A stretch of 64,000 nt of DNA from Liolophura sinensis (Eukaryota > Mollusca > Polyplacophora > Chitonida > Chitonidae): assembly GCF_032854445.1 (NCBI RefSeq), contig NC_088300.1:77057966-77121965 (forward strand), given 5' to 3'. A program made the position numbers and the translations under genes. Shown here one piece after another: positions 13,201-54,500 of the stretch (position 1 is its first letter; the number at the start of each line of letters is the position of its first letter). Below the pieces are notes generated by a model. The model worked only from the letters and a program-made list of their open reading frames with translations. It was not told the origin of the DNA and did no database searches.

Positions 13201-13845
13201 ATGTATTTTAATTGCTCATTAGACAAAAAAGTATTTGGGTGACCCCCATTTCTTATTTGATATTACAAAGAATGATTTATAAAAATCTTAGCATTTCAGA
13301 TAAACTCAAGCAAGTTACGTTCTACCCTCTGAATGCAACAAAAGTTTTCACACCACAGACAATCAAAATTATCATCATGCTTCTACATATAGGTTGGACG
13401 AACACAAGAATTTATTAATAAAAGGATTAAATTCCAGGACCCAAGATACATGAACACAGCAACATGTGATTGAGCCCTGAACACGGAAAATCTTTATTTA
13501 GAATACGTGAGTCATAAGATAGTTTTGATTACAATACCAATGAACATGTAAAATGAGAGTGTCACTGCAGCTGTTCAGCACGTAGAAATAACCATTAAAA
13601 AGGATTTTACCGCAATCAACAATCAGACAGAAATTAGATATTATTAACAAAGTCTTTCATTTTAAAATAATCTAGTAATTAACCCCTACTGTCCAGCCTG
13701 TATTAAAGCAATTCCTTAAAGCTTTGATAGTTTGTTTGAAGTCGTTGATGGTCACATGAGAAAAGGAACATTCTAACCAAATTATAGACTGTTCAGCCTT
13801 GCGCAGTTTATTTCTGATAAAAATTTTGGTATTACAAGCTTTGAG

Positions 13846-13950
13846 TTTATTTATTTACTTACTGTTATTTTACTGTTGTTTAGTGCCATGCTTACAAATT
13901 TTTACTTGTACAACAGGCGGCATTTTGATGGAAAGAGGAAGCAAGAGTGG
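13846..13950 (-). mobile_element. Very degraded SINE fragment
   Basis: A TTTA-rich start, ttgtttagtgccatgctt and aggcggcattttgatgg follow the same order as the SINE 3' domain but with many changes. This is a weak call. Confidence 0.4.
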
Positions 13951-20987: not shown

Positions 20988-21935
20988 ATGGCCCAGCAAG
21001 GAGCGACCAACGCCGCCATTGCCAGAACCTTTGGTTGCACAAGAGCAACTATCGTCAGGCTTATGCAGCGACTCCGGCAGACAGGCGTTACATCCGACAG
21101 GCCTAGGAGCGGTCGACCACGCGTCACCACCCCCGCTGAAGATCGACACATCCGGACCATTCACCTCCGCAATCGGAACGTAACGGCAACGTCAACGGCG
21201 GCGACGGCACTAGGGCACACGATTAGTCGACACACAGTCTACCGTTGACTACGTCAACACGGTATTAGGGCACGTCGACCGTATTGTGGAGTTTATCTGA
21301 CGCCTCAAAATCAACGTCGTCGGCTGATATGGGCCAGGCGCGTTCTACGCTGGCAGAGGCGTGAATGGGCACGGGTAATGTTCTCCGACGAGAGCAGGTT
21401 TTGCGTGTACAAAAATGACGGTTGGGCTAGGGTATACAGGCGTGTAGGAGAACGTTTGGTGCCAAATTGCGTTCAGCAAGTTCGAGCGTTTGGAGGTGGT
21501 AGTGTGATGGTGTGGGGAGGCATCTGTGGCGATCTGAAGACGAGGCTGGTGGTGATTCATGGGAACCTCAATGCTCGCAGATACACGGATGAAGTTTTAC
21601 GACCGGTTGTAATGCCATTCATCCACCAACAGCAAAGAGGAATTTTGTACCAGCATGATAATGCAAGACCTCATACTTGCATTATCGCCAACATCGATCT
21701 CTTACCATGGCCGGCATGTTCACCCGACCTCAGTCCAATTGAGCACTTGTGGGGCCACCTGGGCAGACAAGTCAGAAGACTGCCAGTGCCACCTGTGACC
21801 GTTCAACAGCTGGAAGAGTGTCTCCAACAAGAATGGCAACGAATCACACCTAACGTCATTCGACGTCTGATGTCATCAATGCGTCGACGTGTTGTGGCCT
21901 GCATCAATGCCAGTGGAGGACACACTCGCTACTGA
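20988..21935 (+). pseudogene. Tc1/mariner transposase, broken by a stop codon and a short DDE spacer
   Basis: One frame of 316 codons runs from ATG 20988 to TGA 21935. Residues 1-60 form the helix-turn-helix DNA-binding part (NAAIARTFGCTRATIVRLMQ), followed by the GRPR hook (SGRPRVTT). An in-frame TGA at codon 87 (21246-21248) interrupts it, and the frame continues unchanged afterwards. DDE residues are Asp134 in FSDESRF, Asp224 in QHDNARPHT and Glu252 in SPDLSPIEHLW. Only 27 residues separate Asp224 from Glu252, against 34 in standard Tc1 transposases, which implies about 21 bp lost in frame just after DNARPHT. Other blocks (VMVWGGI, WARVYRRVGER) are well kept, so inactivation looks fairly recent. 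It probably cannot make active enzyme. Confidence 0.9.
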
Positions 21936-22165
21936 GCATGATTTGAATGACATTTCCAGAGGGAAAAATGCTTCATTTGAATTTTGCAAATGTGTAAATG
22001 TTCTGTTGACACCACATCTCTTTGACTGACCATCAAACCAAACCTTCACCATTTAATGAACTGTATGTATGGACGTTTCAGGTGAAATGGAATATTCTTA
22101 TGGAATTAAAAATAATTTCAAATATATTTCTTTCCGTTTTTATTTGATGTCTGATCAAACAGCTG

Positions 22166-22204
22166 TATACTTTCTTTTGAGCACTAGTTTATATGTGTGC
22201 CATG
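22166..22204 (-). repeat. Tc1 right terminal inverted repeat
   Basis: Reverse complement of the left repeat, with a 24-bp perfect inner core beginning tatactttcttttgagc and a diverged outer end. It is followed by TA at 22205-22206. Confidence 0.85.
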
Positions 22205-23080
22205 TACCTTTGTATTGTTTAAAGAGGAGTCCCACTTGTGGCCAACGGCTGTTGGGAATCCTCTATAAATAAACTGTACTCGCGTTTGAACGTGACAAAA
22301 TATCCGCCCTCAAGGATGTGATGAAGAAGGCCTATGCTGTACATTTTGGCACAAATTTAGTTTTCGGATTGCTTCCATTTTTTACATGTACATATCATTT
22401 ACTTCCTTTCCGTTTAAATACCGATATCATGAATAATTCTTTGTGAATTGTGAAATATTTACTCTAATAGCGTATGCGGATAAACTGAACAGTTGGGTCG
22501 TGGAGAGATGGTGGAGTCGTACACAGGCAATCGAACGACTGTCCCAGTCAATTATAGGCGAGGGTTCATGGGCTGCTCAGGTCCCCGAAGCCCCGAGATT
22601 CCAGACGTCCGGAGATATGCTCTAAATGCCTCTTCGACCAATTAAAGTAAATACAAACAGATGTACGAAGCCTTTAATTTTAACATATTGAAAATCTGTG
22701 CGCTAAGATGAAGATCTTCTGAACTCGGAGCTAGAAGCATTCACAAAATGGCAAAGGGAAATTCTTGTGTAGGGGGCACGGGTGGACACCGCCCCCTCCT
22801 CAAGCTTCCTACGCCACTCATTTGTATCATGTGTATCAAATTAATGGTTACTAAAATAATAGCTTTCAAACGATGAGTAAGCATAAGACCCATTTCAGAC
22901 AAGCATATGAAATAGGAAATGAAAACTAAAAACAGCAAAAACGATCACAATTATCTGTAGTAATTATCAAAGCCAGCGAGTGAAATGTTTGTGTTCCCCC
23001 TACAGAGCCTCGTTCCTATGCACTCGTATTTTACAAATTGTATATATTAACTAATGGTTTAGTAAATGTACGAGTTACCG
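22205..23080. other. Spacer between Tc1 element and FICD, no gene seen
   Basis: No motif-bearing ORF. At about 22766-22820 a GC-rich stretch contains, on the minus strand, ggcgtaggaagc and gagggggcgg, resembling sequence at 18136-18170 on the plus strand (see findings). Confidence 0.4.
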
Positions 23081-23143
23081 TGACGTCTGATTAACGTCAC
23101 TGTATCTTGCTCTGACAAGAAATTCCTATCAAGAACAGCCAAT
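23081..23143 (+). promoter_or_regulatory. Putative FICD promoter elements: paired TGACGT half-sites and CCAAT box
   Basis: TGACGT at 23081-23086 and its inverse ACGTCA at 23094-23099 lie 56-118 bp before the FICD ATG, with CCAAT at 23139-23143. TGACGT is the core of CRE, ATF6 and XBP1 sites. FICD is a stress-responsive ER gene in other animals, so a role in unfolded-protein-response control is plausible. This rests on motif matching alone; a complete ERSE (CCAAT-N9-CCACG) is not present. Confidence 0.35.
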
Positions 23144-23198
23144 CAAATGATGACAAATTCCCTCGTCAACTTTCACTTCCGGTTTTAATTTCAACACG

Positions 23199-25408
23199 AT
23201 GAGTGAATGTCTTCGGAAAATGTGTGCGGAAAGAAACATTTACAGTCATTATGGCTATTTAAAAATGAAGTATGGCGGTGTTAGGAGCAGTATGAACTCA
23301 CCAGCTCTGTTACTGTTTGTGTTTCTATCAGGGGCTTTGCTGACTTACCTAGTAACACTCGTGCCATGGGCAGAAATATTGGGAGGGAAACGTCAGGAAA
23401 TGACAGCCGGTGACAGAGGATACCACGAGACATCTGTCATGTTGCGGGGTAGACAACAACACCCTGTCAACTCAGGTAAACGGTATTGTTGACTGATAGA
23501 AACAGCACTACAGCAGTATATATATTGCTTTAATTGTCGTACGTAATTTGTTTGTCTATACAATATGATAATGTGTGGTTCAACTCTTGGATGTGCTTAG
23601 TCAGCGTTTTGACACCCATTAATAGATCGACAGGCCATATTGAAAATAGAAATAGATTAGCTCTCGTGTCGTATGCTGGTAGATGGAAAGGTATAGAGTG
23701 AAAGCTAACAGAATTGGTGACTTAGCTCTTATTCCTTTGCTAAACATTTCCCCCTCCACGCTATACATTCACTTGTCAAGAAATGCGCGAAATCAACGCA
23801 GGCTGGAGGTGAAGACGAGAGATTCTGCATAAAGTAAACTAATTGAAAGGTTTATACTAGGCTAGTTTGATCAATGATTAGCTCAGAGGGGTGTAAAGGG
23901 AAACTGCGAGCAGTCTCAAATACTGTAAATATACTGTGTATATCATATTTTAACATTACCATGTGAAATACCGATAATGTGGTGTCGAAACTAACTGTGG
24001 TGTTGTTACCCTGGGTTTCACATTGGCCAGTCCAAATCAGGCACCAGCTAACCTGTTATGGATGTTAACTGTCCTTACTATTTGGCCTATAGTCCTCCCA
24101 CAAAAACTAGGAAACTTTACACTTTACTGTGAACATGTAGGCCTATGCACTATGATTACCATGTTGTCAGGTTGTTTCTGATCTTCATAAAGTAGAATCC
24201 CAAGTAATCAGAAAGTTACACATAGGCAATTTCTAAATGATATCAAGCACTATGGTACGTTTAGTTTAATTCATTTGTTGAATCAGTGTTTATAGTGCAT
24301 GCCTCTTTTGTTTATTTCAGATTTGAAAGCAGAAGCCCTAGCAGCCTTGAATTTAGCCCTGGATATGCAGGCTCAGGGAAAGAAGGAGAAGGCATTGAAA
24401 TTATTTCAACATGCACTTGTTTTGGATCCTTCTCATGCAGATATTTTAATAGAATATGGTGAATTTTTAGAAAAGCATGAGCGCGATGTTTTAACTGCAG
24501 ATCATTTATACAGGAAAGCTCTAATTGTAAGCCCTGGTCACAGCCGTGCTCTGGCCAATAGGCAGAGGACCCAGCCTCTGGTGGAGGAAATTGACCAAAC
24601 CAAGTTTAACAGAATTGACAAGAAGAGAGACATGCTGTATAAGGTGCCAGGAAATCATCCGGGCCTAAGGAGAATGAAAAAAGAGGCATACTTCATGAAT
24701 ATATATCACAGTAATGCCATTGAAGGGAATACATTAACACTGGCCCAGACACGATCTATAATAGAGACGAAAATAGCAGTAGGTGGTAAGAGTCTTGTTG
24801 AACAGAATGAAGTGCTAGGACTGCATGCAGCTCTTTCGTATATCAACAGCACCCTAATACACAGAGTAGGAGAGATAACTCTGACTGATATTCTGGAAAT
24901 TCACAAGAGAGTTCTAGGATTTGTGGACCTGGAAGAGGCTGGAAGGTTCAGGACATCACAAGTGTACGTTGGTGATTACCAGCCCCCAGGCCCTCTGGAG
25001 CTGAATCATTTAATGGAGGAATTTATGGAATGGTTAAACTCTGACGAGGCTTTAAAACTTCATCCTATAGAGTACGCTGCATTGGCCCATTACAAACTTG
25101 TCATCATTCATCCATTTTTTGATGGCAATGGAAGGACTTCCAGACTTCTTATGAATCTCATTCTAATGCAGGCTGGATTCCCTGCTGTTACTATTCGTGT
25201 GGAAGACCGGCTACGATATTATGAAACCCTGAATATAGCCAATAATGGTGATGTTCGGCCATTTATAAGATTTATCGCAGAATGTGCAGAGACCATGCTG
25301 GATCAGTTCTTGTACTCCACTGTGGAGAATCCTAAGGAGAATTTTCCTCAGTTATCAAACAGTAATCGCTCTGGGGATAGGGTTATAACTATAGAAAGTT
25401 CTCCTTAG
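23199..25408 (+). CDS. FICD: FICD: ER protein adenylyltransferase (Fic domain, AMPylation of BiP)
   Basis: Exons 23199-23475 and 24321-25408 (phase 1 intron, gtaaac...ttcag) give 454 residues; human FICD has 458. Seen: a single membrane anchor at about 36-55 ([20 protein letters not shown]); two TPR repeats at about 95-164; inhibitory helix motif SNAIEGN with Ser223 and Glu227; an N-glycosylation sequon Asn268-Ser-Thr in YINSTL, where the human protein is also glycosylated; Fic catalytic loop HPFFDGNGR at 356-364 with His356. Known of the family: a type II ER membrane protein that AMPylates and de-AMPylates the chaperone BiP/HSPA5, with Glu227-type autoinhibition setting the direction. All key residues are present, so it should be functional. 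The first ATG was chosen because it precedes the anchor; Met8, Met23 and Met32 are in-frame alternatives. Confidence 0.96.
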
Positions 25409-28987: not shown

Positions 28988-31900
28988 TCAAATAGTATTG
29001 TCTTTGGTGAGTCGAAGTAGAGATTTTGCGTCTTCTGTGGTCTTGGCAACATCACCAACTTGTTTGCTGTCCAGTGGCACCCTCTGTAAGATCAAGAGCA
29101 TCAAATCAGTTTCATCAAGTGTGTAAAAGTAAAATGTATATAAAATTTCCTGATAGACATATGAAGTGTTATTCAACCCTTAGGCCTACATCCTTATCAT
29201 TGTGTATCAACTGTTTTTATCAGTTCTTCTCCTCATTGGCTGGTTACAGGAAATGTGTCAGAGCCAGATTTTTAGAGGTGCTCAGCTAAGATAAAGGACA
29301 AGCATTTATACCACATAACACACGGAACAGAAAAATTAGTTTGTTGAATGGAAACTGAACATGTGTTGGGTGTCACCCTATGGTAAATAGGGATATAGTT
29401 TAGCATCAAATATCACACCCATTGTGAGATCGGGGGCCTCCGTGGCTCAGCTGGATAGCGCGCTAGCGCAGCGTAATGACTCAGGAGGCTCTCACCAATG
29501 CGGCCGCTGTGAGTTCAAGTCTAGCTCATGCTGTCTTCCTCTCTGAACGCATGTTGGAAGGTCTTCCAGCAACCTCTGCCTGGTTTCCTCCCACCACAAT
29601 GCTGGCCATTGTTGTATAAGTGAAATATTAATGACTATGGCGTAAAACACCAATCAAATAAATAAATATATTGTGAAATCATTATTTGAAATTTTACTTC
29701 ATCTGTCTTCTGTTTAGAATCTTTTCATTGAGTAAAAGGTGGTGAAAAAGCTGCATGCCTAACTTCAGCTGACTAGCAGATTACATGTATATGGCCTGTA
29801 TAGGCCTTTTCTCCTCAAGGCCCTGTTCTTTGTACTATTATTATTATTATTATTATTAACCTTATTAACATAAATCTGCATACAGCTCTTTAATATAAAT
29901 GAACCCACTCGCCTAGAATGATAACCAAGCTTGATGTCCAGTTAAACATGAGATAATTAAGCATCAATACTTCACCTCTCTGTAAGCATTCAGTGTCCTT
30001 GCATCAAACAACATCTGGGTTATTTCTTCGGAATCCCGAATGTTCCTGTATTCTGCAGGAATCCTTCCATCCTGACAATGAGATAAAGAAAAACACTGAA
30101 CAAGAAGCAAGACATCATTTTTTTTTTGTTTTTTTTTTATAGTAAACTTAATTCATGCCCTAAAAATTCACCTGAATATGAAATATTTTTAGAGGTAAAT
30201 AATGGTCATAAATTATAAAATGAAATTGTGGGAGCTGAAACTATCATTTTTCATAAAGAATGTCATCTTACATTCAGGCATTAAAGCATGTTTCCTCGAT
30301 TAATAGAACTTCCTGGTTCAGACAAACTAACAAAATAACTTTTGATTAGATTTTCCTGATTGAATACTTTGCTTAGAGCTGTTTGACACTAAATAGGCCT
30401 TTCAATGCCGATGCACATAGATGTAGGCTACAAACTTCATGTACCACTTGTGAACTGTAGACTTGATGTTTCATGTTTACTCTGGCTTCTTATACACTCT
30501 TCAACTACCTTTACACAAATTATTTGTAACAAATTGAGAATTTCCACCTTGTCTTGTCGTCGTTCAAGGTCATCTGGGTTTTTCTCCAACAAAAGTCGCA
30601 CAAATGGCTGTCCTTGGTCCTCTGGTAGTGCATAAGCATAATGCAATGGGTAACGGTTACACTGAAAATAATATCAATACTTGTACTGCAGTTCCCATCA
30701 ATACTTGTACTGCAGTTCCCATATGTATTTGTATTGCACTTCCCATCAATACTTGTACTGTAGTTCCCATATGTATTTGTATTGCAGTTTTCATCAATAC
30801 TTGTAAAGCAGTCCCCATCAATACTTGAAAGCAGTTTCCATCCATACTTGTACTGTAGTTCCCATAGGTATTTGTATTGCAGTTTCCATCAATACTTGTA
30901 ATGCAGTCCCCATCAATACTTGTACTGCAGTTCCCAACAATACTTGTACTGTAGTTCCCATATGTATTTGTATTGCAGTTCCCATCAATACTTGTACTGT
31001 AGTTCCCATATGTATTTGTATTGCAGTTTCCATCAATACTTGTACTGCAGTTCCCATATGTATTTGTATTGCAGTTTCCATCAATACTTGTACTGCAGTT
31101 CCCATAAGTATCTATATTGCAGTGTCCATCAATACTTGTAATGCAGTCCCCATCAATACTTGAAATCAGTTTCCATCCATACTTGTACTGAAGTTTCCAT
31201 CAATTCTTGTACTGTAGTTCCCATCAATATTATACTGCAGTTCCCATCAATACTTGTACTGCAGTTCCCATTATTACTTGTACTACAGTTCCCATTAATA
31301 CTTGTACTGCAGTTCCATCAACACATGTACTGCAGTTCCCATTGATACATGTACTATAGTTCCCATCAATACTTGTACTACACTGTCAAGAATAGTGCTA
31401 CCCTGTCCATACACTAACATTGCCAGGAATACATGTAGTTCTCAGCACAGGCCTGTCTATACAATTACATTGTCATGAATAGTTCTCAGCTCTGGTCTGT
31501 CTATACACTTACATTAGCAGGAATAGTTCTCAGCACAGGCCTGTCTATACAATTACATTGTCATGAATAGTTCTCAGCACTGGTCTGTTACACACTTACA
31601 TCATCAGGAATAGTTCTCAGCACAGGCCAGTCTATACACTTACATCATCATGAATAGTTCTCAGCACTGTTCTGTCAAAACTTACATCATCAGGAATAGT
31701 TCTCAGCACGGGTCTGTCTATACCCATACATTACCAGGAACGGTTCTCAGGACCTGTCTATACACTTACATTGTCATGAATAGCTCTCAGCACAGGCCTG
31801 TCTATACAATTACATTGTCATGAATAGTTCTCAGTACTGGTCTGCCTCTACACTTACATTGTCAGGAATAGTTCTCAGCACTGGTCTGTCTACACTTACA

Positions 31901-34900
31901 TTGTCAGGAATAGTTCTCAGCACTGGTCTGTCTACACTTACATTGTCATGAATAGTTCTCAGTACTGGTCTGCCTCTACACTTACATTGTCAGGAATAGT
32001 TCTCAGCACTGGTCTGTCTACACTTACATTACCAGGCATAGTTCTCAGGACCTGTCTACACACTTACATTGTCAGGAATAGTTCTCAGCACTGGTCTGTC
32101 TACACTTACATTGTCATGAATAGTTCTCAGTAGGGGCCTACTGGTCTGCCTCTACACTTACATTGTCAGGAATAGTTCTCAGCACTGGTCTGTCTATACA
32201 CAACTGTCTGCCCACTTCCACTTGGTTGAAAACCATGGCTCTGGTCAAAGCTGTGTAACCATTCTACAATAATAAAAACACAAGGAAATAATATTTGGAA
32301 CAAATGGATGTGTACCTGGACTGTGCTGTGATTACATTCCTTTGCCTATACATGAGAATGAACACAAATGTTACTGAGCAGTTGTAAACAAATATCCATT
32401 ATTTGTGTTTCATTTGTGTCTTAACAATGGGGAAAATTGTGACTGAATAATTAGGATATTTGTCTTTTGATCACTAGGATGAAAGACGCGTGAGTTTAAA
32501 TCTCAGCCTTGAGTCACAGAATTTGTGGATTTCCTAGATCTAGATTCCTAGATTGTTTGTAGTTTTCAGCAAAGTAAAGTGAGGCAACATGAAAGGGAGC
32601 AGTTTACCACTGAACTTCTGACTCCTCCACCCACACAAAAAAACCCTTGTATTAGTGGAAAATTCTTGAGTACTCGAAACACCAATCAAATAAACAAATA
32701 CATTTCTCGAGTTAACCCACCTTGTCCTTATAGTCTGCATCATTCAAATTTTTCACATCCTCCATGTTGCCAGCTGCTGCTGCTTGAAACAGGGCTAATC
32801 CTCTGGCCTACATCCACACAAAAACAATGATCAGCAAACAGGGTGAATCCTCAGGCATACATCCACACAAAAACAATGATCAGCAAACAGGGCTAATCCT
32901 CTGGCCTACATCCACACAAAAACAATGATCAGCAAACAGGGTGAATCCTCAGGCATACATCCACACAAAAACAATGATCAACAATCAGGGCTTATCCTCT
33001 TTCAAACATCCACACAAAAACACTTATCAGGAGTGAATCCTCTGACATACATCCACACAAAAACAGTAATTAGCTGATAACAAAGCTAAAAAAAGCAAAA
33101 ATGCTAGCCTAAATACATACACTAAATCTAACAATCATCAGCAATGATTGTATACCACATAGGATACGGGCAATCTATGGGAACCCAGCAATATCATTTT
33201 CAATAGAATGACTTAAAGCATTGCCTACTTGCGATTAGCATAGGCCTACTGGCTCTTGGAAGATCACCACTGCTTGGAATGGCTACACTGTGTTACCACA
33301 TGAGCACTGTGAGGTTTATCACCACTGCTTGGGATGGCTACCCTGTGTGACCACATTAGTACTGTGAGGTGTATCACCACTGCTTGGAATGGCTGCCCTG
33401 TGTGACCACATGAGTACTGTGAGGTGTATCACCTCTGCTTGGGATGGCTACCCTATGTGACCACATGAGTACTGTGAGGTGCATCACCCCTGCTTAGGAT
33501 GGCTACCCTGTGTGACAACATGAGTACTGTGAGGTTTATCACCACTGCTTAGGATGGCTACCCTGTGTGACAACATGAGTACTGTGAGGCTTATCACCAC
33601 TGCTTGGAATGGCTAGCCTGTGTAGCCATATGTGCACTATAAGGTGTATCACCTCTGCTTGGGATGGCTACCCTATGTGACCTCATGAGTACTGTGAGGC
33701 TTATCACCACTGCTTGCAATGGCTACCTTGTGTAACCATATGTGCACTATGAGGTGTATCAGAACTGCTTGGGATGGCTACACTGTGTAACCACCGATCA
33801 TAGTCAGGTGTATCAGAACTGCTTGGAATGGCTGGCGCTACTTGGAATAGCTACTGGGTTATATCAATCTCACTTTATTTTGAAATATGATCCAATATAT
33901 TTTCTTACCTCAATGTTTTTATATCGCTTTAAAACCTTGAAGTCTGCATCTGTATTTTTGTTGACTCTGGCCAGGTCCAATAAAGGTTGTCCTGTCTGTG
34001 GATAATTTACCAGAAGACATCAGAAGAGCATTTTTGAGTAAAAAATTCAACAGTATATTAGTTTTTCGCAAGTCAGGAATTAAAACTTTGACATTTTGCC
34101 ATGAAAGAAGTCCATGCAAATATCCTTCTTCAGAAAGGACATTTATTAACTGCATAAAAGTTTTTCGCAACTTAGGAGTTAAAACTTTGACATTTTGTGC
34201 TGAAAGAAGTCCTTGTGAATTCTTCAGAAGTGTCATTTGTTAAATTTTGGTAAAATCCTGAAGTGTAAATTGTGGTAAAATGCTGAAGCTGCTGAAGTGG
34301 GCCTACTACAATTGGTACATGTTGTGATTAGTGACATGATAGGTGATACGTTTACATCAGACATGAGAGCTCACCTCTGTGTCTGTGACATTTGTGTTAC
34401 CTTCGCCATAAAATGTCACTGGTAAATGAAACAGCAACAGTTTCCCCAATTGGTGTACAATGAACTGAAAAAAGCCATCATCAACATGTAATCTATGATA
34501 ATCTACACATCTTATCATCTCAGGAAAAAAAAGTCAGGTAGTCTGCTCTTACAGATAATGAGGTAATTCTCAGCAAAATTGAAACTTTGATTCTTTTGCA
34601 TACATAACAGGTTGAAACACATTTAGTGCATGCATGGTATGGAAGTACAAATGGCCTTGTCACATAAACTGGTGTGCAATCTACCAGAACATGTATACAG
34701 ATATTAGGGTAATTCCCAGTAAAACAGAAGCCTTCATTCCTTAAGCACATATGTGCAACATGATTGGTTAAACAAATTCTCATTTAGTGCATGCATATGT
34801 AGAAGTGAAAATGCTCACTAAAACTGGAACAATATTTAATATATGCTTAATAGAAAAAAAACAATGTGATGAACAAGACAGTAAATTAGACTCCTCTTTC

Positions 34901-35398
34901 AGTTCTCAGATGTACTTGTAGAAATGTAGGTATGTCTGCTAATGTTGACACAGCTCACCTTGTCAATAGCTTGTACAATGTCCTCATGGCCTAAACAAGC
35001 CGCTAATTCTCGTGGTGTCAATCCATCCTGTATACAAGGTCACCAAAACAGAGAAACACTCTAAACTCATCAACACATTTCCTATGCAGTTTTATTAATC
35101 TGACTGCTGTACATGTGCTGAAAAATTCAGGATGACCATTTTAATTCCATTAATATCATTGATTTATTTACTGCCTCATATTTTTATGAAAGTATTTCAG
35201 TTTACCAGTGTTAATTTCAGCACAAAAGTTTTATTGATGAATACAAAAATATGTGTCAATATTTACCATGTTCCTATCTGTCACATTGTACCCATAATTC
35301 TCTCTCAAAATCCACTGTATCCAGTTGGGAGACATTCCTTCCTGGACAGCACGTAGTATTGGGGTATTACCGTCCTAGCATGAAAAATACAAGCCACT

Positions 35399-35429
<31 letters not shown>

Positions 35430-38400
35430 TTTCTTTCTTTCTTTCTTTCTTTCTTTCTTTATTTATTTATTTATTTATTTATTTATTTCATTTCATTTCA
35501 TTTCATTTCATTTTAAACCGTGCTCAAGAATATTTCACTTATGTTTGTCAGCCAGCATTATGTTGGGAAGAATCTGTGCAGAGTTCAGGGGAAGCTCGTG
35601 ACCATCTGCACATTGCTGGCACCATTTTCGGTCATTAACTTAATTAATTAATAAAGTAATTTATTAACAACATATTAACACCCAAATTCTTCAGCTGTTT
35701 GTGCCATCTATATATGCTGTACTTACATTCATTCATTCATGTTCATGTTGAACAAACTAATCCACACAAAACAACACAGCTAAAGCACCAGTACATATTC
35801 CTCTGTGCTGTTGAAACAGGTTTTATAATAACATAGAAATATACTGAATTTGACACTCAGGAGATCATTTCTCTCAAATGGGAGAAAAACAATACAGTTC
35901 AATCAGAGGCTCAGAGGAATAGACTGGAACATCATTTTTATGAACTTTATGTTGTCACATAGAAGTGAAAACAAGGAATGTGTTACAAGACAAAGGAGAA
36001 CAAAGACAAAGTATTTAAACAATCCTGTTTACTGGCTATTAACAAATCCTACACAACACCATGTGTCAACAATGATAAGCCTACCATGTCTTTCTCATCT
36101 CGTTCTTCAGGACTGAGAGCAGAGAACATCAATCTGGCAATGTTAATTGGACATTGTCGCCGGATACATCTTTGGAACAGGGGCTCAGTTCTGCTAGACT
36201 GAAATAGGTACATGTAAACCAGACATATGATTACCCATACACATTCATTACAAGCATCTCATACTGGTCATTCATGAGTCACAGACAAATTCATCTTCAC
36301 CCACCTGTATGCTCACCCACCTGTATGCTCACCCACCTGTATGTTCACCCACCTGTATGCTCACCCACCTGTATGCTCACCCACCTGTATGCTCACCCAC
36401 CTGTATGCTCACCCACTTGTATGCTCACCCACCTGTATGTCCACCCACCTGTATGCTCACCCACCTGTATGCTCACCCACCTGTATGCTCACCCACCTGT
36501 ATGTTCACCCACCTGTATCCTTGGTACAAGGCTGTATGATGCAGAGGCTACAGCTGATTTTTTTCCTTTAATGTCGTACTCAAGAATTTTTCACTTACAT
36601 GATGTTGAACAGTTTTATATGGGTGGAGGTTAAGCAGAGTGCCCTCCCAACAGTGATGGTCAAACTCCCATACCATACTGGTGCCCTCCCAACAGTGATG
36701 GTCAAACTCCCATACCATACTGATGGAGGTTAAGCAGAGTGCCCTCCCAACAGTGATGGTCAAACTCCCATACCATACTGGTGCCCTCCCAACGGTGATG
36801 GTCAAACTCCCATACCATACTGGTGCCCTCCCAACAGTGATGGTCAAACTCCCATACCATACTGATGGAGGTTAAGCAGAGTGCCCTCCCAACAGTGATG
36901 GTCAAACTCCCATACCATACTGGTGCCCTCCCAACAGTGATGGTCAAACTCCCATACTATACTGATGGAGGTTAAGCAGAGTGCCCTCCCAACAGTGATG
37001 GTCAAACTCCCATACCATACTGGTGCCCTCCCAACGGTGATGGTCAAACTCCCATATCATAATGGTGCCCTCCCAACAGTGATGGTCAAACTCCCATACC
37101 ATACTGGTGCCCTCCCAACAGTGATGGTCAAACTCCCATACCATACTGATGGAGGTTAAGCAGAGTGCCCTCCCAACAGTGATGGTCAAACTCCCATACC
37201 ATACTGGTGCCCTCCCAACGGTGATGGTCAAACTCCCATACCATAATGGTGCCCTCCCAACGGTGATGGTCAAACTCCCAAACTGGTGGAGGACTGCACT
37301 AACAGACCCTCAACATTGAACAATTTCAATGTAAACCAGTTTTTTGCACATGAGTTTTTCAGTATTTTCCCCTCCAGTTTCTTCTGTTGATGGCACACAT
37401 GTAAGACATCATGCTGTAAAATCTGTGTATTTAGAAAACAAAAACTCATGCTCCAGCTACGAAAGTTTGATAAACAGTGTAACATAATCCATTAGAGCTT
37501 ACCCCAGGAGCTTCTTGCACCCTCATCTGTCCCACCTTAGCCCCATGTTTCAGCAGTAACTGTACCAGTTGCAAATTGTTCCTGTCTATCGCACAGGACA
37601 GTAAGGTCTTCCCGTAGGGACCCTGTGGAGACAAGTGATAAGCCGGCTCTGTCACAGTCATATCTAGAGTATGCCTTAAATGTCTACAACTTAATGTAAC
37701 ATCTCCACTCTATCAAAATCATCTTTGTACCAGGCCTTAAATGTCTACAGCTAAATATAAAATGTTAACCATCTTTAAATCATATATGGATTAGGTCTTC
37801 AGGTACTGCGTCACTTACCCAGTTTTCATCTACAGGGGGTCGGCAATTATCGTCGCAAAGGCACCTTACATTGATTTCCATAGCTTATGACAGAAATTTA
37901 GATTCCAAAGATAAAGTGAGCTGTATTTGGTTGTGTCAGATAACAAGCAAATATTCCATTTGACTGAATACTGATCCTGGCTAACTTCTGACGTACAATA
38001 CAGGCACCTGGAGATGTTTTCTGAGCAGGAAAATGGAGGTATAGACTGGAATATGTGAAGAAGGCTTACCCCAAACCTAGAATTGATGCTCCAACCTTTC
38101 TGCGTCATCAGAATTTTCTTTGTAGTAAGAAGATCCTCACTCAAGACACCATGGATCAGCTCCTGAAACGGTCACAAGAATACTGTTAACACATAACTGC
38201 TTACCATTACTTTCCAGCAGGATTTTCCAAATCAACAGCTGACAATTTTATGTTCTTTTAACATTAAAAGAGAGCACTTGCTAATACTGAATTTTTTTTT
38301 TTTCCCTTGTTTGAAGAATATTTCTCTTAGATGATGACTGCCAGCATTTTTGTGGGAGGAAAGGAAGCAGAGTCTGGGGAGGGAGAACCCATGAACATCC

Positions 38401-41400
38401 ACAAGTTGCTGGCAGACCTTCCTATGTAAGACAGAAGATAAAGCCAGCATGGGCACAGTAGCCATATTGGTAAGAGGCACAGTGGCCACATTGGTGAGAG
38501 GCTCAGCGGCCACACTGGTGAGAGGCTCTCGATGATGTGCTAGCATGCTAACAACACTGAATTTAACATAATGTAAAATACCTAAATCTATCTAGTTATC
38601 AAAAGCATCTGTGCATTCATTTACTCATTTATAATTTGAATAATCTGTGGTATGGCTGGAATATTAACATACTGGTACTATTGTGCTTTGCAATGATCTG
38701 AATTGATCAGTCATTCAGTGAGAGATATATCAGCACACAAATAAATACATAAATGGACTTACACTTGTTTTGCTGTTCTCCTGCAATATTCTCAAGCAAT
38801 CTGACACAGCTGGAGGATTATTTCTTCTAGATTCAGCCAGTTCAATGATGGTTTTGTTCTCCTGTAATATAACAAGTAAGTAAGTCTATGATCATGCACA
38901 TTTCATTTTCAGCCCCCATCCTGGTGTAATTACCTGTGGAAGTAGCATATAGCATCCGAGAGGTTAGTTATGTTCTGGTAGATAAAACTTCACATACTTA
39001 TGATTGGGTTTGCACTGATCATATTCGACACAGGTCCACACTCGTATGTTATTCTTGAAAATTAAATTCATTTTTTTAAAAGAATCTCACCTTGACAATA
39101 CAGTTGACACTACACCATAGTCTGATCATTAGTTTGGTCACCATGCGAGTGTTTCCTTTACACACCGCTGTCACCAGACCTGGCTGCAATGACAGTAAAT
39201 CAGAGAATAGGTGAGATTATATATAATCTGTGTGCTTGAATGTTTTATTGATTACATTACTCTACTGTAGATCGATCCTGAAAGCGACAAGTTGAAATCC
39301 ACAGATTTAAATAAAAGAAATAAGACAAATGATACAAACAGGGGGAGACAACATATTGGACTAGGGGGAATAACTCTTATTCATAAAAACAAATCTGTAC
39401 TATATACCAGAAAATACATGCATATTTTACAAAACTGAACTAAACTATATTTAGAACTACCTCAAACATTTCTAGAAGAGCCTTCATATGTCCGTCTGCT
39501 TCATCAAGGGGCGTTTGGCCAAGCTACAAGAAAAGTAAACCATATTTCATGAAAACCATATGAATACACAAACATGTATTTCTGACAGTGAGAAATACAT
39601 CAAATGTTAAACAGTGGCTGTTGTTTGTGTAAATCATGTTGGGCATACTCATTTCAAATTCAGCCTTGATATACCACAAGTAGGTTTGGGATAATTATGA
39701 AGTACAAGTAACAGGAAGTAATTCCTGTGTTGTAATTGCTAAGTGTCTTGCTCCATCAAAATGTGCTAATGAATAGCCTGTTAAATAGTTATTGCACAAA
39801 CAGCCTACAAAACTTACATCAGGAAAGTGACAATCAGTACAAAGCTTATGTTATAAACTAGTTACAGTACCTTGTTTCTGACAGACAGATCTGCACCACA
39901 CTGCAGAAGGCTCTCGGCCACTAGATGGCAGCCCTTCCTCACTGCTATATGTAAGGCCGTGTCCCCATCCTGAGCAATAAACACACACACTATAGTCACT
40001 AGTTACCTGACTACATCATTTGACAACATAAATACCCCACATATGTGAAACTTTCCATAGGTTGTTGGTCTTTCTTTGATGTCCTAATAACACTGTGTTT
40101 GAACATAGCTAGAGCTTGGCCCCTCAGGCTCAGATGAAATGTGTCAGTAGCCCGACTGACAGCCACATGGGGACAGTGTGATTTTCCCAATCCAAATTAC
40201 TGAGAGAAGTATAAAGAAGTTACCTTGTTTTGCACATTGACAGGAACTCCGTTATTTGCATAGACATATACATGGGAACTTGATTTGTCAGCACATCCAT
40301 GCAGTAATGTGTTGTTGTTCTGAAAGACATGTAACCAAATTTACAGTCACAAAATACCCTCATTATGTCAATGATAAATGCAGGCATTTGGATTTTAAAC
40401 TTTTTACCTTTGACCTTTAATGCCATACTCTAGAATTTTTGCTTATATGATGGCAGTCAGGTTAAGAGGCAGCAGAAAATGGACAGCTCAGCTAGGTTAT
40501 TATGTCTTACCTCATTTCAGTAGCAGAGTCTCTCTTTAGAAGTTTCGTTACAGCTAGCAAAATTCTTTTACAATCTCTGACTTTCACTGGTAAACTGAGC
40601 TTTTGGTTGCAGAAGCTCACCTTTGTTGCTATGTTTGAACCCAGTTTAGTGACAATATCTCTGGCCTGGTCAGCCTCAGACCATTCTGTGCTGTACAATA
40701 CTGTCATTGGCTGCAATAAGAAAGAACAATTACAAAATCAAATGTGATGTGGCTAATAAAGAGCTAGTGGTCAGACCTGAGGCAAGTGTATACAAGCCCA
40801 TGGGAGCTGAGGCATTGTATACAAACTCCTGGGAGCTGAGGCAGTGTATACAAGCCCATGGGAGCTGAGGCAGTGCATACAAACCCCTGGCAGCTGAGGC
40901 AGTGTATACAAGCCCCTGGCATCAGAGGCAGTGTATACAAGCCCCTGGAGCTGAGGCAGTGCATACAAACCCCTGGCAGCTGAGGCAGTGTATACAAGCC
41001 CCTGGGAGCTGAGGCAATGTATACAAACTCCTGGGAGCTGAGGAAGTGCATACAAACCCCTGGCAGCTGAGGCAGTGTATACAAACCCCTGGCAGCAGAG
41101 GCAGTGTATACAAGCCCCTGGGAGCTGAGGCAGTGTATACAAGCCCCTGGCAGCTGAGGCAGTGTATACAAGCCTCTGGCAGCTGAGGCAGTGTATACAA
41201 ACCCCTGGGAGCCGAGGCAGTGTATACAAGTCCCTGGGAGCATTTTAATCAGGGAAAGTTTTAAAGTGTCATATACACCATTAACTCCCAAGGTAACATC
41301 TTGTTTGCACTTAGGATTTGTTTCACTACTTAACATGCGTTAGTCTGTGTAATTACATGCACATGCTGATTATCCCAGTGAATTTACTCCATGATTTCCA

Positions 41401-43770
41401 TACCTTTCCCTTGCTGCTGTTCCTTGCCCGTTCTTTCACTCTAATCACAGGTGTGGGGCTCACGAGAGATTCCCCTGGTCGCCGCCTGCCGCTGCGGATA
41501 GAGTCAATCAGTAATTTGACCTTGACCAGATGTTTGTCTGCGGCATTATCTGAGGCATCGTACTCCCATGGACACTTCCCACTCCCGTCATCATGACTGC
41601 TCCAAATGTTAGCCTTGGATTCTGGCCACTGTCAAATGAAAGTATTACCATCACATAAGTCAGGAGCACAGGTGAATGAAACCTTAGGAATGTTTGAAAG
41701 TAAGAAAAACATTCAATCTAAAAATTTCCAGTACTGAGTGACAGACTGACAGACTGTAATGTATGTATTAAACACTGACCTGGTAGATGTTGTCTGTACA
41801 GAAGCATTTCTCCACCAAGTAGCAGGCTATCGTCTCATCTTTGTGGTCAATAGCAAGGTTTACAGGGTCAGTCCCCTCAAACTGTAACAACACAACACAG
41901 CACAGGGGATAACATCCTGAAACTAGATGTATCCCTCAAACTGTAATGACACAACACAGGGGATAACATACTGGAACCAGATGTATCTCTCAAACTGTAA
42001 CAACACAACAGACAGAGGTAACATGCTGAAGCTAGATGTATCCCTCAAACTGTAACAAGACAACAGAAGGAGGTAACATACTGAAGGCACATGTATCCCT
42101 CAAACTGTAACTACACAACAGAAGGAGGTATCATACTGAAGCTAGATGTATCCCTCAATCTGTACTGGTAATAACACAACAGAAGAGGACAGCATACTGA
42201 AAAATGATATATTCCTCAAACTGTAACAACATAACACAACAAAGGAGGTAACAAACTAAAACATGGTGCATCCCTCAACTGCAGCATTACAACACAGGGG
42301 ATGACATATACTGATGATGTATCCTCAAACAGTACAACACAAAGGACGGGATAGCATGCTGAAATGTAACATATCCCTCAAACTGTAACAACACAACACA
42401 TCAGAGGGGATAATATATAGAAACACTTATTATTTACTTGACTGATGTTTTGTCAGCTAATTATTTATTTGGTGTTTTATGCCGTACACAAGAATATTTC
42501 AGCATTATGGTGGGAGGAAATTGGGCAGAACCTGGGGTAAACCCACGACCAACCGCAGGTTGCTGACAGGCCTCCCACATACGTCCAGGGAGGAGGCAAG
42601 CATGAACTGGACTTGAACTCATAGCAACAGCATTGATGGGGGGCTCCATGGTCATTTCGCCATGCTGGCATGCTAAATCCCTCAGCCACAGAGGCCCCCT
42701 CTCAGCTAATTAGGCAGCTGCATCATTTCTGATCTTTAACGGGGTAATACATATTTATTTAAAAGTCTATGATAAACTAGCTCCTATTTTCGTGGGAGGC
42801 AATTATTGGCTGAACAGCATAGAACAGCATAGTTGGTAGTGTATTGCTAGTGATTTTGTGCCTGACTCTATGGTTGCTGGATCAAAGCCCAGGGGGTATC
42901 AGACAATTTTCAGCACACGAATGTGTACTATATCCAGAAAGTATAATCACTAACAGCTGTAATAATTTACACTATGTATTTATTAATATTTTTGCATGCT
43001 ACATAACTTATGGGGATATTCACTGTACATGGATCATGAATGAAAGACCCACAGATTCATGTTAAAGCTTAAATCCTTCATTTCCTGTCATGTATATTAA
43101 CAAATGATGGCTAACTCACGCAAGCTTCAATGTGCTGAATGTGGTCATAATCACTGATGTGGTCCAGAAGATGCCGAACACAGCCAAAATCACGAGACTT
43201 AATCGCTTCTGACAGCTGCAGAACAGAAAAATTAGTCATCTTGGAGAAGTAATGAAGTAATAATAACTACACAAGGAATGTAGAAATGAAGCATTTAGAT
43301 CCACTGGTCTATTTAACAACGTATTGAAATGAATTCAAGCCCACAAATTCATCAGGTTTTCATTAGGAACATCATAAACGTTAAGTACCAAGTTACTTTT
43401 GTTTTCTGGAAACTTTCCTGGTCACAGAGAACCATCAATTATTACCAGCATTTTGAATTTTATAATTTGTTATTATTCCACCGTTTTATTATGACATGAT
43501 GAAATGAGCTATGCTTTGATGTATAGGTGAAGGAAATTCACAATGATGATGAAAACATAATGCCTGGTCATGTATGGAGCTATCCAACCAATCCTGCGCA
43601 AGCCAGATTTGAACTCATGACCTCATTAGCCAGGGGCTAGTTCTCTTCCAAGAGAATCCATATGATGGAACAACTAATATTATCAACCCACAACACTCTG
43701 ATGAAATGTAAGTATCAGTAATCCAGCCCAATACCTTTTTGGCAGTTTCCACCCAGCTCATAGTGTCCAT
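28988..43770 (-). CDS. Ankyrin-repeat protein, 22 coding exons, family not recognised
   Basis: Exons in transcript order: 43735-43770, 43120-43215, 41780-41881, 41404-41628, 40621-40710, 40224-40319, 39871-39969, 39461-39523, 39091-39183, 38763-38861, 38070-38162, 37503-37622, 36085-36198, 35267-35374, 34959-35027, 34375-34464, 33909-33995, 32721-32807, 32162-32263, 30548-30661, 29976-30071, 28988-29083. They join in frame to 724 residues plus TGA. The ATG has an in-frame TAA 18 nt upstream. Ankyrin hallmarks: DGDTALHIAVRKG (216 on), GKTLLSCAIDRNN (368 on), DGNTPILRAVQEG (443 on), DGLTPRELAACLGH (479 on), NGYTALTRAM (590 on), YPLHYAYALPED (627 on). Exon edges usually fall just before the DG/NG of a repeat. 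A basic, Ser/Pro-rich linker lies near 120-153. No FYVE, BTB, kinase, SOCS, death or membrane segment is seen. Probably a soluble scaffold; function unknown. Every exon is a multiple of 3. Individual splice sites are inferred by eye. Confidence 0.88.
29432..29670 (+). mobile_element. Full-length tRNA-derived SINE
   Basis: The head is tRNA-like: A-box-like gtggctcagctgg at 29442-29454 and B-box-like gagttcaagtc at 29511-29521. A conserved body follows (tggaaggtcttccagcaacc, cccaccacaatgctggcc), ending at caccaatcaaataaataaat. It inserts in the last intron of the ankyrin gene. It is the reference copy for the other SINE fragments in this window; the head lacks a proper acceptor stem, so it is not a functional tRNA gene. 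Confidence 0.88.
29835..29860. repeat. (ATT)n microsatellite
   Basis: About eight ATT units in the last intron of the ankyrin gene. Confidence 0.9.
30680..31380. repeat. 24-bp minisatellite in ankyrin intron 19 (acceptor side)
   Basis: About 28 copies of a 24-bp unit such as cccatcaatacttgtactgc followed by agtt, mixed with a related variant containing catatgtatttgtattgcag. The period is a multiple of 3, so it leaves ORFs of 60-110 codons open on both strands; these are not genes. Together with the neighbouring array it makes up almost all of intron 19 (30662-32161). Confidence 0.92.
31430..32161. repeat. 42-46-bp minisatellite built from the exon 19 / donor junction
   Basis: About 17 units. 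On the minus strand each carries a copy of the last 30-36 nt of exon 19 (gctgagaactattcctgaca) followed by the 5' splice site AAT|GTAAGTG or a near variant such as GTAATTG. The first member is the real exon end at 32162. The array fills the donor half of intron 19. Confidence 0.93.
32450..32705 (+). mobile_element. Diverged SINE copy near exon 18
   Basis: The stretch ends with cgaaacaccaatcaaataaa, matching the SINE 3' end, and has gtgagtttaaatctcagcc, a B-box-like segment, near its start. The middle is poorly conserved. Confidence 0.45.
32790..33062. repeat. 49-bp minisatellite spanning the exon 18 acceptor
   Basis: About five units. The first overlaps the start of exon 18 (boundary at 32807/32808). 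Plus-strand unit: cagggctaatcctctggc, then the splice-site complement ctacatccacac, then aaaaacaatgatcagcaaa. The copy at 32887-32911 repeats the exon start and the TAG acceptor without change; others differ at a few positions. Confidence 0.9.
33255..33850. repeat. 55-bp minisatellite in ankyrin intron 17
   Basis: About 10-11 units containing tatcaccactgcttgggatg, gctaccctgtgtgaccaca and tgagtactgtgaggt. Spacing between tgcttgg markers (33271, 33326) is 55 bp. Units differ by point changes, so this is an older array. Confidence 0.9.
35398..35512. repeat. Compound (TTTA)n(TTTC)n(TTTA)n(ATTTC)n microsatellite
   Basis: TTTA units, then TTTC, then TTTA again, then ATTTC. It continues directly into a reverse-oriented SINE, so it most likely grew from the SINE's TAAA tail. 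Confidence 0.9.
35513..35635 (-). mobile_element. SINE fragment, reverse orientation
   Basis: Contains accgtgctcaagaatatttc, cagccagcattatgttggg and cgtgaccatctgcacattgc in the family order. The head is missing. It lies in intron 13 of the ankyrin gene. Confidence 0.75.
36297..36520. repeat. 16-bp minisatellite in ankyrin intron 12
   Basis: About 14 near-identical units of cacccacctgtatgct. The 16-bp period makes three units equal 16 codons, so all three plus-strand frames stay open (ORFs of 76-119 codons, not genes). Confidence 0.94.
36553..36630 (-). mobile_element. SINE remnant at the edge of a minisatellite
   Basis: tcgtactcaagaatttttca then tgatgttgaacag and gggtggaggttaagcagag match the SINE 3' domain with changes. 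The final part is carried into the adjoining array. Confidence 0.6.
36630..37285. repeat. 42/58-bp composite minisatellite, SINE-derived
   Basis: Two unit types alternate: 42 bp (actggtgccctcccaacagt, then gatggtcaaactcccatacc, at) and 58 bp, which adds gatggaggttaagcagag. The long type recurs at irregular multiples. The added part matches the SINE remnant at 36600-36640, so the array seems to have grown from that insertion. Confidence 0.92.
37819..37881 (-). other. Possible alternative first coding exon in ankyrin intron 11
   Basis: An ATG at 37879-37881 (minus) opens 21 codons (MEINVRCLC, DDNCRPPVDENW) and ends exactly at a consensus donor, TGG|gtaagtg. It is phase 0, so it would join in frame to exon 12 (GPYGKT). 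An in-frame stop lies six bases upstream of the ATG. It could start a short isoform of about 380 residues, or be chance. Confidence 0.3.
38290..38540 (-). mobile_element. SINE copy with internal 24-bp triplication
   Basis: Matches the family from ttgaagaatatttctcttag through tgccagcatttttgtggg and ccatgaacatccacaagttg into the tRNA-like head. Near 38450-38528 a head segment (gaggcacagtggccacattg) occurs three times in tandem. Confidence 0.75.
40405..40490 (-). mobile_element. SINE fragment, reverse orientation
   Basis: Contains taatgccatactctagaat and tatatgatggcagtcagg, matching the SINE 3' domain with divergence. It lies in intron 5 of the ankyrin gene. Confidence 0.5.
40775..41245. repeat. 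29-bp minisatellite in ankyrin intron 4
   Basis: About 16 units of gagctgaggcagtgtataca then agcccctgg, with variants (gcatac, aaacc, cagcag). The minus-strand frames lack stops over up to 190 codons; these are not genes, as the array lies between exons 4 and 5. Confidence 0.93.
41866..42412. repeat. About 58-bp degenerate minisatellite spanning the exon 3 acceptor
   Basis: About nine units. The first overlaps the start of exon 3 (boundary at 41881/41882). Minus strand: gttacag|tttgaggg at the real site, and gttacagtttgaggga in most units. Plus-strand unit parts: tatccctcaaactgtaac, acacaaca, ggataacatactgaaac. Units vary more than in the other arrays. Confidence 0.88.
42460..42700 (-). mobile_element. 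Full-length SINE, reverse orientation
   Basis: Runs from ttatttatttggtgttttat through agcattatggtgggaggaaa and ccgcaggttgctgacaggcc to a tRNA-like head ending cacagaggccccc. It lies in intron 2 of the ankyrin gene. Confidence 0.85.
43550..43640 (-). mobile_element. Possible tRNA-derived SINE head of another family
   Basis: On the minus strand gagttcaaatctggcttg gives a B-box-like segment with gcctggctaatgaggtc before it. The body does not match the main SINE family. This is a weak call. A similar piece is at 47548-47575. Confidence 0.3.
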
Positions 43771-51501: not shown

Positions 51502-54500
51502 TTACCTATAATTAGACATGGTCAAGGAAAAACATGGCTGCAACCGTGCAATACAGGACAAGTGCAAGGAAGAGAAAAGAAAACAGATGCATGCAACTGT
51601 GCAATATAGGACAAGTGCAAGGAAGAGAAAAGGAAACAGATGCATGCAACTGTGCAATATAGGACAAGTGCAAGGAAGAGAAAAGGAAACAGATGCATGC
51701 AACTGTGCAATATAGGACAAGTGCAAGGAAGAGAAAAGGAAACAGATGCATGCAACTGTGCAATATAGGACAAGTGCAAGGAAGAGAAAAGGAAACAGAT
51801 GCATGCAACTGTGCAATATAGGACAAGTGCAAGGAAGAGAAAAGGAAACAGATGCATGCAACTGTGCAATATAGGGCAAGTGCAAGGAAGAGAAAAGGAA
51901 ACAGATGCATGCAACTGTGCAATATAGGACAAGTGCAAGGAAGAGAAAAGGAAACAGATGCATGCAACCGTGCAATACAGGACAAGTGCAAGGAAGAGAA
52001 AAGGAAACAGATGCATGCAACTGTGCAATACAGGACAAGTGCAAGGAAGAGAAAAGGAAACAGATGCATGCAACTGTGCAATATAGGACAAGTGCAAGGA
52101 AGAGAAAAGGAAACAGATGCATGCAACTGTGCAATATAGGACAAGTGCAAGGAAGAGAAAAGGAAACAGATGCATGCAACTGTGCAATATAGGACAAGTG
52201 CAAGGAAGAGAAAAGGAAACAGATGCATGCAACCGTGTAAAATACGACAAGTGCAAGGAAGAGAAAAGGAAACAGATGCATGCAACTGTGCAATACAGGA
52301 CAAGTGCAAGGAAGAGAAAAGGAAACAGATGCATGCAACTGTGCAATACAGGACAAGTGCAAGGAGGAGAAAAGGAAACAGATGCATGCAACTGTGAAAT
52401 ATAGGACAAGTGCAAGGAAGAGAAAAGGAAACAGATAAGTACATGTATCAACTTGAAATACAAGACAGAAAGGTCGCAAATGTAACAATGAGCACAGGTC
52501 TGTTTTTCTTAGCAAACTTAGAACTATGGTCATCTTTGCTAAATACATGTATTTGACTGGTGTTTTAAGCCATGGTCAAGATTATATCACTGATGACTGC
52601 AGAGCGGTTAGAGGCCAGAGTGGTTAGTTCATTGGAGGAATGAACTGTCGTTCCCAGGTAAACCAAAAACCCCTTGGACTTCTAACCCAGACTGAGCCAC
52701 TGGGGTCTGGACTCAATCCTGTGACCCCAATGGTCAAGGAGGACAGTGTTCTACAGTTTCAAATTAAGTCAAAATGCACAAGATATCAAACACTGGGTAT
52801 CAAACCTTTGTCATATACTGAAGTTCTAGTTGTGAATTTCTCTCAGAGATCACTGATCAATGTACACAGAAGCATGGGCTACTTACTTTGATGCAGTGAA
52901 GATGGACGTGGAATTGGTGGCAATGGCATTGATGGGGCTGGTGTGGGCTTTGATCTCCCCCTCTGGACTGCAGGTGTCCACCTGCCACAGCTTCAAGTAG
53001 CCAGTCCGACAGCCACTCAGCAGTATGTCCCCTGAGGGCAGCAAGGCCAGGGCACAGATCCAGTCCTTATGGGCCGCGTTGACAGACTGACAGGAAATAA
53101 ACACTGCAGGTTATCACTTAGTTCAGATCAAGTCAACTCACAAAAATCTGATACTTCTCTTATAACCAGACTTAAGCATAATGTGCATGTAATGTTCTCA
53201 GGCCAGACTGGTTGCTGCCGCCAAGGCCCCATGTAGGGCAGGTGTATCTACAAATTCCCTGTTACAGGCAAGGCTTGAGCCCATACCTCATTTGTCCTTG
53301 TGACTGCAAGACAAATGCCTTAACTACTCCACAATGGCCTACTCCTTTGTCTTATGTCATATCCTACTCCCTTGCCTATGTCATGGCCTACTTCCTTGTC
53401 TATGCCATGGTCTACTCCTTTGCCTATGTCATGGCCTACTCCCTTGCTTATGTCATGGCCAACTCCCCTGCCTAAGCCATGGCCTACTCCCCTGCCTATG
53501 TCATGGAATATTTCCTTGCCTATGCCTATGTCCCTTGTCTGTGTCATGGCCTATCCCCATGCTTATGTCATGGCATATTCCCTTGCCTATGTCATAGCCT
53601 ACTCCCTTGTCTATGGCATGGTCTACTCCTTTGCCTTGTCTATGCCATGGTCTACTCCTCTGCCTATGTCATAGCCTATTCCCTTCTTTACGTCATGGCC
53701 TATTCCCTTCTTTACGTCATGGCCTATTCCCTTCCTTACGTCATGGCCTACTCCCTTGCCTATGCCATGGCCTACTCCCTTGCCTATGCCATGGCCTACT
53801 CCCTTATCTATGGCATGGTGTACTCCTTTGCCTTGTCTATGCCATGGTCTACTCCTCTGCCTATGTCATGGCCTACTCCCTTGTTTATGTTATGGCCTAC
53901 TCCCTTGCCTATGTCATGGCCTATTTCCTTGTCTATCTAATGGCCTAATCCCTTGTTTATGCCATAGCCTACTCCCTTGCCTATGTCGTGGCCTATTCCC
54001 TTGTCTATGTCATGGCCTATTACCTTGTCTATGCCATGGCCTACTCCCTTGTCCGTGCTGTGAAGAACACAATGAACAACAGATACTAGACAGCACAAAC
54101 ACAATATGATTCCCACAATATGGTCTGGGGGAGACATAACTAAGGTAGCTTGTTTTGAGCGAAAGCTACAAAGGCCATAATACTGTAAATTTAGAAAGAT
54201 CAATCGAGCCAGACAAGAGGAAGAGCTTACCTGTTTGAGTTGATGAGTGCCCAGGTCCCACTTTTTGATGCAGGTATCGCGTGAGCCACTGAATAGTGTG
54301 TGGCCCTGGATGGCCAAAGACTGGATGCCGTCATAGTGAGGGGGTTCAAGGTTATACTTGGGGGTGAACACACCAGCCGCTTCAGCAGGTACCTCAAATA
54401 TCTGAGCCAGCAATGGACAAAGAATCACTTGATTGTACATACGATGATATGTGTACACCACTGCACAGTCATGCAATCAGAATTTTTAATATTTTTAACA

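Follow-up and report, generated by a model that had tools for sequence, protein, structure and literature searches.

Why does an intron begin with a ladder of near-copies of its own 5′ splice site, and which of these sites would define the coding exon? The question is raised by an ankyrin-repeat gene on the minus strand of a 64-kb stretch of the Liolophura sinensis genome (contig NC_088300.1, positions 77,057,966 to 77,121,965; hereafter the window, from the first base of which coordinates are counted). A minisatellite at 31436..32201 (minus strand; Tandem Repeats Finder (TRF), period 44, 17.7 copies) repeats the end of a coding exon together with its donor. An earlier note on this DNA had described such a minisatellite and had suggested that donor choice could switch the gene between full-length and truncated protein. 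The composition of the units, the decoy ladder and the early stop were all recovered in the present analysis; the switch itself gained no further support. The explanation that we favour, at a probability of roughly three in four, is a minisatellite seeded at an exon edge, the decoys of which are tolerated as the exon-proximal site wins.

Gene Model and the Native 5′ Splice Site

The gene (28988..43215, minus strand) was modelled by eye and with a script as 21 exons. Exons are counted from the first one modelled, which need not be the first of the gene; the exon called 19 in the earlier note is the 18th of 21 in this count. All 20 introns are in phase 0, the length of every exon is divisible by three, and the model reads as a single open frame of 712 codons to a TGA. 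As a whole it matched Pfam Ank_2 (PF12796) with E=4.7e-33 and 114 bits, against a cut-off of 27.3, which identifies it as an ankyrin-repeat gene.

Exon 18 (32162..32263, minus strand) has 102 nt, NGYTALTRAMVFNQVEVGRQLCIDRPVLRTIPDN, and is followed by the native 5′ splice site, the GT of a GTAAGTG at 32160..32161 (minus strand, phase 0). The exon joins in phase 0 to exon 19 (30548..30661, minus strand), which reads CNRYPLHYAY.... When exons 17–20 were joined, the best Ank_2 stretch covered residues 6–93 and ran from exon 17 through exon 18 into exon 19 (E=2.1e-9); exons 18 and 19 by themselves gave no Pfam match at E 0.001. The phase of the introns (0 in 20/20) and the Ank_2 homology spanning exons 17–19 thus support 32161 as the predicted coding donor, independently of donor strength.

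Anatomy of the Exon 18 Array

The 44-bp minisatellite reaches 40 nt into exon 18 (32162-32201) and so spans the exon–intron boundary, the last 40 nt of the exon being unit 0. The shared exon part is thereby slightly longer than the 30–36 coding nt given in the earlier note. When the units, which are 40–52 bp long, were cut at the donor, 18 unit ends were obtained, namely the exon copy with the native donor and 17 intronic decoys, in agreement with the earlier count of about 17. The first intron base of the decoys (minus strand) lies at 32109, 32067, 32027, 31985, 31941, 31899, 31857, 31813 and 31769 for units 1–9, and at 31729, 31685, 31643, 31599, 31556, 31512, 31468 and 31418 for units 10–17. 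Native site included, GT was kept at 18/18 unit ends, GTAAGT at 13/18 and GTAAGTG at 12/18, the last in line with the roughly one dozen intact motifs reported before; among the decoys alone the counts were 17/17, 12/17 and 11/17. The divergent decoys read GTAATTG (three), GTATGGG, GTTAGTG and GTAAGTT (one each). A 24-nt junction probe found 10 matches in the window at up to 3 mismatches, compared with 0 in 100 shuffles. The same intron holds a second minisatellite on the minus strand (30673..31379; 24-bp unit, ~30 copies), which ends 11 nt before exon 19, and the two arrays together make up ~1433 of the 1500 bases of intron 18.

The exon copy is equal to the unit consensus across its 40 nt. 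Its mean identity was 96.7% to units 1–8 and 89.6% to units 9–17, and the mean likeness among units was 94.8% within the first group and 85.8% within the second. Units 2, 4, 6 and 7 are identical to one another, as are units 5 and 8; many others are distinct. This pattern fits growth on the exon side with older units drifting off, and conversion of the exon by the array would also be possible. The only match to the array in the 609-Mb genome was the array itself, in a search that skips very common words and hence does not prove rarity; a dispersed-repeat or mobile origin was accordingly left unsupported.

The donor hexamer GTAAGT showed a mean heterozygosity of 0.099, compared with 0.146 for the 24 nt upstream and 0.07–0.26 for the six-base blocks of that stretch, as an ungapped comparison of the units of one array with no shuffle test. 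The donor bases therefore have no clear excess of conservation, and no special constraint was read from them. The earlier note had named neutral decay at the GT positions among the signs of a passive repeat. The unit pattern is closer to neutral; the GT itself is invariant across the units, as are several other unit columns. On this pattern a regulatory reading appears unlikely.

Predicted Coding Effect of the Decoy Donors

Reading through the native donor gives V-S-V-E-A-D-Q-stop, the TAG being the eighth codon, as had been noted earlier. This codon is contained in all 17 decoy exons, none of which (0/17) keeps the frame open, and a premature stop would thus be introduced by each alternative form. 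Use of a decoy would add 52 to 743 nt. A coding expansion of exon 18 was considered and is ruled out by the stop at codon 8. The stops in the read-through need no design, because a new stretch of ~17 codons is likely to hold a stop by chance.

Other Exon-Edge Arrays in the Gene and Its Neighbour

Three of the eight arrays of at least 100 bp in the 14.2 kb of the ankyrin-repeat gene touch splice junctions. Besides the array of exon 18, a 55-bp minisatellite (41874..42407, minus strand; TRF) covers the 3′ splice site and the first 8 nt of exon 2, which starts at 41881. It forms a ladder of six decoy 3′ splice sites keeping TTACAG/TTTGAG (slash, junction), all six of which read into a stop. A 49-bp minisatellite (32787..33065, minus strand) lies over the 3′ splice site and the first 21 nt of exon 17, which starts at 32807; the acceptor was chosen by frame and phase, and GTAG/GCC is intact in 1/5 of the other units.

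A further ladder was found on the minus strand of a KIF21-like gene in the flank of the window (L007:3297-3974). Its 104-bp units carry an exon end and a GTAAGTCT donor (GTAAGT). The native donor lies at L007:3817 and is followed by five decoys 104 nt apart, four of them GTAAGTCT and one GTAAATCT, and the exon part of the units is identical at 59–63 of 66 nt. All five decoys lead to stops, in a frame chosen by the analyst. On its own strand the ladder is flanked on one side by an exon-like stretch matching KIF21A_4th (at about 24.1 kb of the flank, E=1.9e-16) and on the other by a WD-repeat-like frame that lies in the window at 53937-54476. The exon of the ladder gave no significant Pfam match; it may resemble human KIF21A. 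For the WD-repeat-like frame the sole Pfam match was Beta-prop_TEP1_C, below the cut-off, and the frame is presumably the C-terminal end of KIF21.

The second ladder bears on the suspicion that the ankyrin-repeat gene might be in decay, or its array a product of faulty assembly, which would leave the ladder of exon 18 without biological weight. Long tandem arrays are generally prone to assembly error. The 21 open exons with all introns in phase 0, the many distinct units (despite the identical ones) and the similar ladder in a second gene speak against such an origin, which we regard as very improbable.

Two side observations concern these genes. Within the ankyrin-repeat gene, a 16-bp array in mid-intron (36297-36518) consists of units reading ACAGGTGGGTGAGCAT on the minus strand, each with donor-like and acceptor-like signals. 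A 28-bp minisatellite of ~105 copies (58180-61110) lies upstream of the minus-strand, KIF21-like WD frame.

Base Rates of Minisatellites and Donor-Bearing Arrays

Base rates were taken from a sample of 264 kb, consisting of the 64-kb window and the next 200 kb (L006-L025), with minisatellites defined by a period of 10 or more and a length of 100 bp or more. The window contained 13 minisatellites (14.7% of bases) and the next 200 kb contained 27 (9.5%). The ankyrin-repeat gene is minisatellite-dense, with its 8 arrays in 14.2 kb compared with those 27 in 200 kb.

Genome-wide, triplets of GTAAGTG with gaps of 28–45 nt were found at 1617 places, compared with 2770 for the reversed motif, so that a genome-wide excess of donors in arrays is unsupported. 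Single motifs outside arrays numbered 37 for GTAAGTG and 60 for its reversal in the 264-kb sample, which gives similar ratios of triplets per sampled single (~44 and ~46); the triplet counts are overlapping places and not arrays, so that a few long arrays weigh heavily, and the singles come from a small local sample. The perfect donor CAGGTAAGT occurred at 9807 places, against 4849 for the reversed sequence. Among the first 100 of these listed on C1, 58 were placed by a linkage distance of 700 bp in five clusters, each with at least three donors (no control list). By eye, only one of the five starts at an exon-like open stretch; in this cluster (L027, G000:C1:1290800-1293000), 11 perfect CAGGTAAGT donors, mostly 84–96 bp apart, extend from the stretch, which gave no Pfam match. 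On the whole, arrays that carry donors are frequent in this genome.

A heuristic for arrays at exon edges returned 15 rows over 40 arrays, of which three were accepted, namely 31436-32201, 41874-42164 (part of 41874-42407) and flank 13288-13872 (in L007, the KIF21-like ladder). The array of exon 17 was not flagged by it and rests on frame and phase. The other twelve rows were dropped for lack of protein support, among them flank 21401-24077, which adjoins a KIF21-like exon, and flank 110113-110320, which resembles a WD-repeat exon and had no Pfam match.

Elsewhere in the window, a FICD-like open frame on the plus strand (24296-25408) combines a Fic domain with a weak match to TPR, and an open frame at 21249-21935 carries a transposase DDE_3 domain.

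Origin of the Array and Choice among the Donors

According to the favoured explanation, a tandem duplication over the junction of exon 18 and intron 18 would have copied the last 40 coding nt and the donor into the intron, and the array may then have grown by further duplication or conversion, mostly on the exon side. Selection on the protein would hold the coding copy constant and so give the array a stable end, while the older, distal units would drift. The exon-proximal donor would mainly be spliced, because pairing with the acceptor 102 nt upstream defines a coding exon of normal size. The decoys would be tolerated, and their leaky use would lead to an early stop and probably to decay.

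Several results weigh against this explanation and concern the donors themselves. The predicted duplex energy of the native donor with the U1 5′ end is -7.3 kcal/mol, and 11 of the 17 decoys have the same value. The decoys at 32067, 31985, 31899 and 31857 share the sequence of the native site for 35 nt upstream and 8–23 nt downstream, which bears out the earlier description of near-perfect decoys in native exon context. No local sequence feature accounts for the first donor winning. If that donor is used, the identical context of the four decoys places the discriminating information further upstream in the exon, in acceptor pairing or in position. Decoy exons measuring 154, 196 and 236 nt would lie within the ordinary size range. 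An RNA structure hiding the decoys was tried and rejected, since exon 18 with the first units (407 nt) gave a weaker fold than each of 100 shuffles (z +2.35); the region 30500-33100 had 0 Rfam matches to known structured RNAs. When a donor is duplicated and both copies are of the same strength, it is often the intron-proximal one that is preferred, contrary to the assumption made here. Nothing firm on such a preference was found in the literature, the excerpt of PMC8724738 citing only a title on the activation of proximal sites. Leak to the decoys is thus a real possibility.

The remaining results of this kind concern the arrays. Identity to the exon copy tends to fall with distance along the array, and this gradient is borderline (Spearman -0.48, p 0.053). 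In a simulation of uniform seeding with eight seed units, 0.64 junction contacts were expected and three were observed (P 0.019), the simulation being post hoc, with the gene picked because of the finding and the unit lengths set by the analyst. Donor words within arrays of the 264-kb sample exceeded their reversals (GTAAGTG 12 vs 4, GTAAGT 18 vs 7, GTGAGT 35 vs 8); most came from two arrays, that of exon 18 with 12 GTAAGTG and 13 GTAAGT and one flank array with 30 GTRAGT.

The equal U1 pairing of 11 decoys and the identical 35-nt context of four would suit a poison-donor switch, in which regulated use of decoys brings about early termination and decay, with array length or trans factors controlling how much full protein is made. 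The GT kept in 17/17 decoys and the codon-8 stop given by every one of them point the same way. Such a switch, which is the donor-choice switch of the earlier note, is nevertheless unlikely in our judgement. The donor bases lack a clear excess of conservation, and GTAAGT was lost in 5/17 decoys. The stop is likely by chance and is present at the sibling arrays too, and GTAAGTG triplets are common and not above the reversed motif.

A helping role in splicing is less likely still. The downstream U1 sites would here raise U1 occupancy and so aid recognition of exon 18, the donor of which is middling: in predicted U1 energy it takes 12th place among the 20 donors of the gene, and its GT is preceded by AAT and not by the usual AG. 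The acceptor-side arrays of the same gene could not work in this way, and the absence of a clear donor conservation excess counts against a helper as well. The array looks more like a recurrent by-product in a repeat-rich genome than a designed switch.

Comparison with Known Systems

A human IFI6 minisatellite providing multiple splice donors was reportedly described by Turri et al. in 1995. As stated in an excerpt of a further source, two downstream repeat units of the IFI6 minisatellite serve as splice donors and give rise to three mRNAs (PMC4526556). The likeness lies in minisatellite units that carry splice donors, the array of exon 18 spanning an exon–intron boundary with units that have the donor consensus. 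The human IFI6 unit is 12 bp long and in frame, so that use of a decoy adds few residues. The unit here is different in its length of 40–52 bp and in carrying the native exon context, 0/17 decoys leave the frame open, and the decoys are predicted from sequence.

Intron gain by tandem duplication of splice signals is covered, in the part of the source available, for ATP2A1, for 24-bp AGGT repeats in fission yeast and for potato RdRp (PMC4974935). There too, tandem duplication copies splice signals along with exon sequence, and the extra copies lie inside an intron. The present case differs, on our reading, because it is the 5′ edge of an existing intron that has been lengthened, with no intron gained. 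Internal tandem repeats within segmental duplications have also been found to change the structure of human genes (PMC2812944, in excerpt); there, minisatellite-sized repeats with units of ~30 bp alter exon–intron structure. That case concerns recent primate paralogues, and the excerpt does not describe a donor ladder with native exon context. In the excerpts of the open-licence literature on minisatellites and splice sites, ladders of donors and of acceptors that recur within one gene were not encountered. The array of exon 18 belongs to a known kind of system. Of added interest is that several junctions are affected in two adjacent genes, some of them at donors and others at acceptors.

Somewhat speculatively, and with low probability, exon edges might be recurrent birthplaces of minisatellites in this genome, where a coding master copy, held unchanged by selection, re-seeds splice sites into the intron. 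Many genes would then have evolving ladders of decoy donors and acceptors, the copy number of which would send a varying share of transcripts to decay and so tune gene output in a heritable and fast-mutating way. Apart from this, the locus offers a natural experiment in splice-site choice, in which donors of identical local sequence compete, so that whatever chooses among them must lie in the exon body, in its acceptor or in position. Should exon-edge arrays prove to be as frequent as the 264-kb sample suggests, the genome would provide replicated ladders for weighing exon definition against proximity rules and for estimating the leak rates of decoys.

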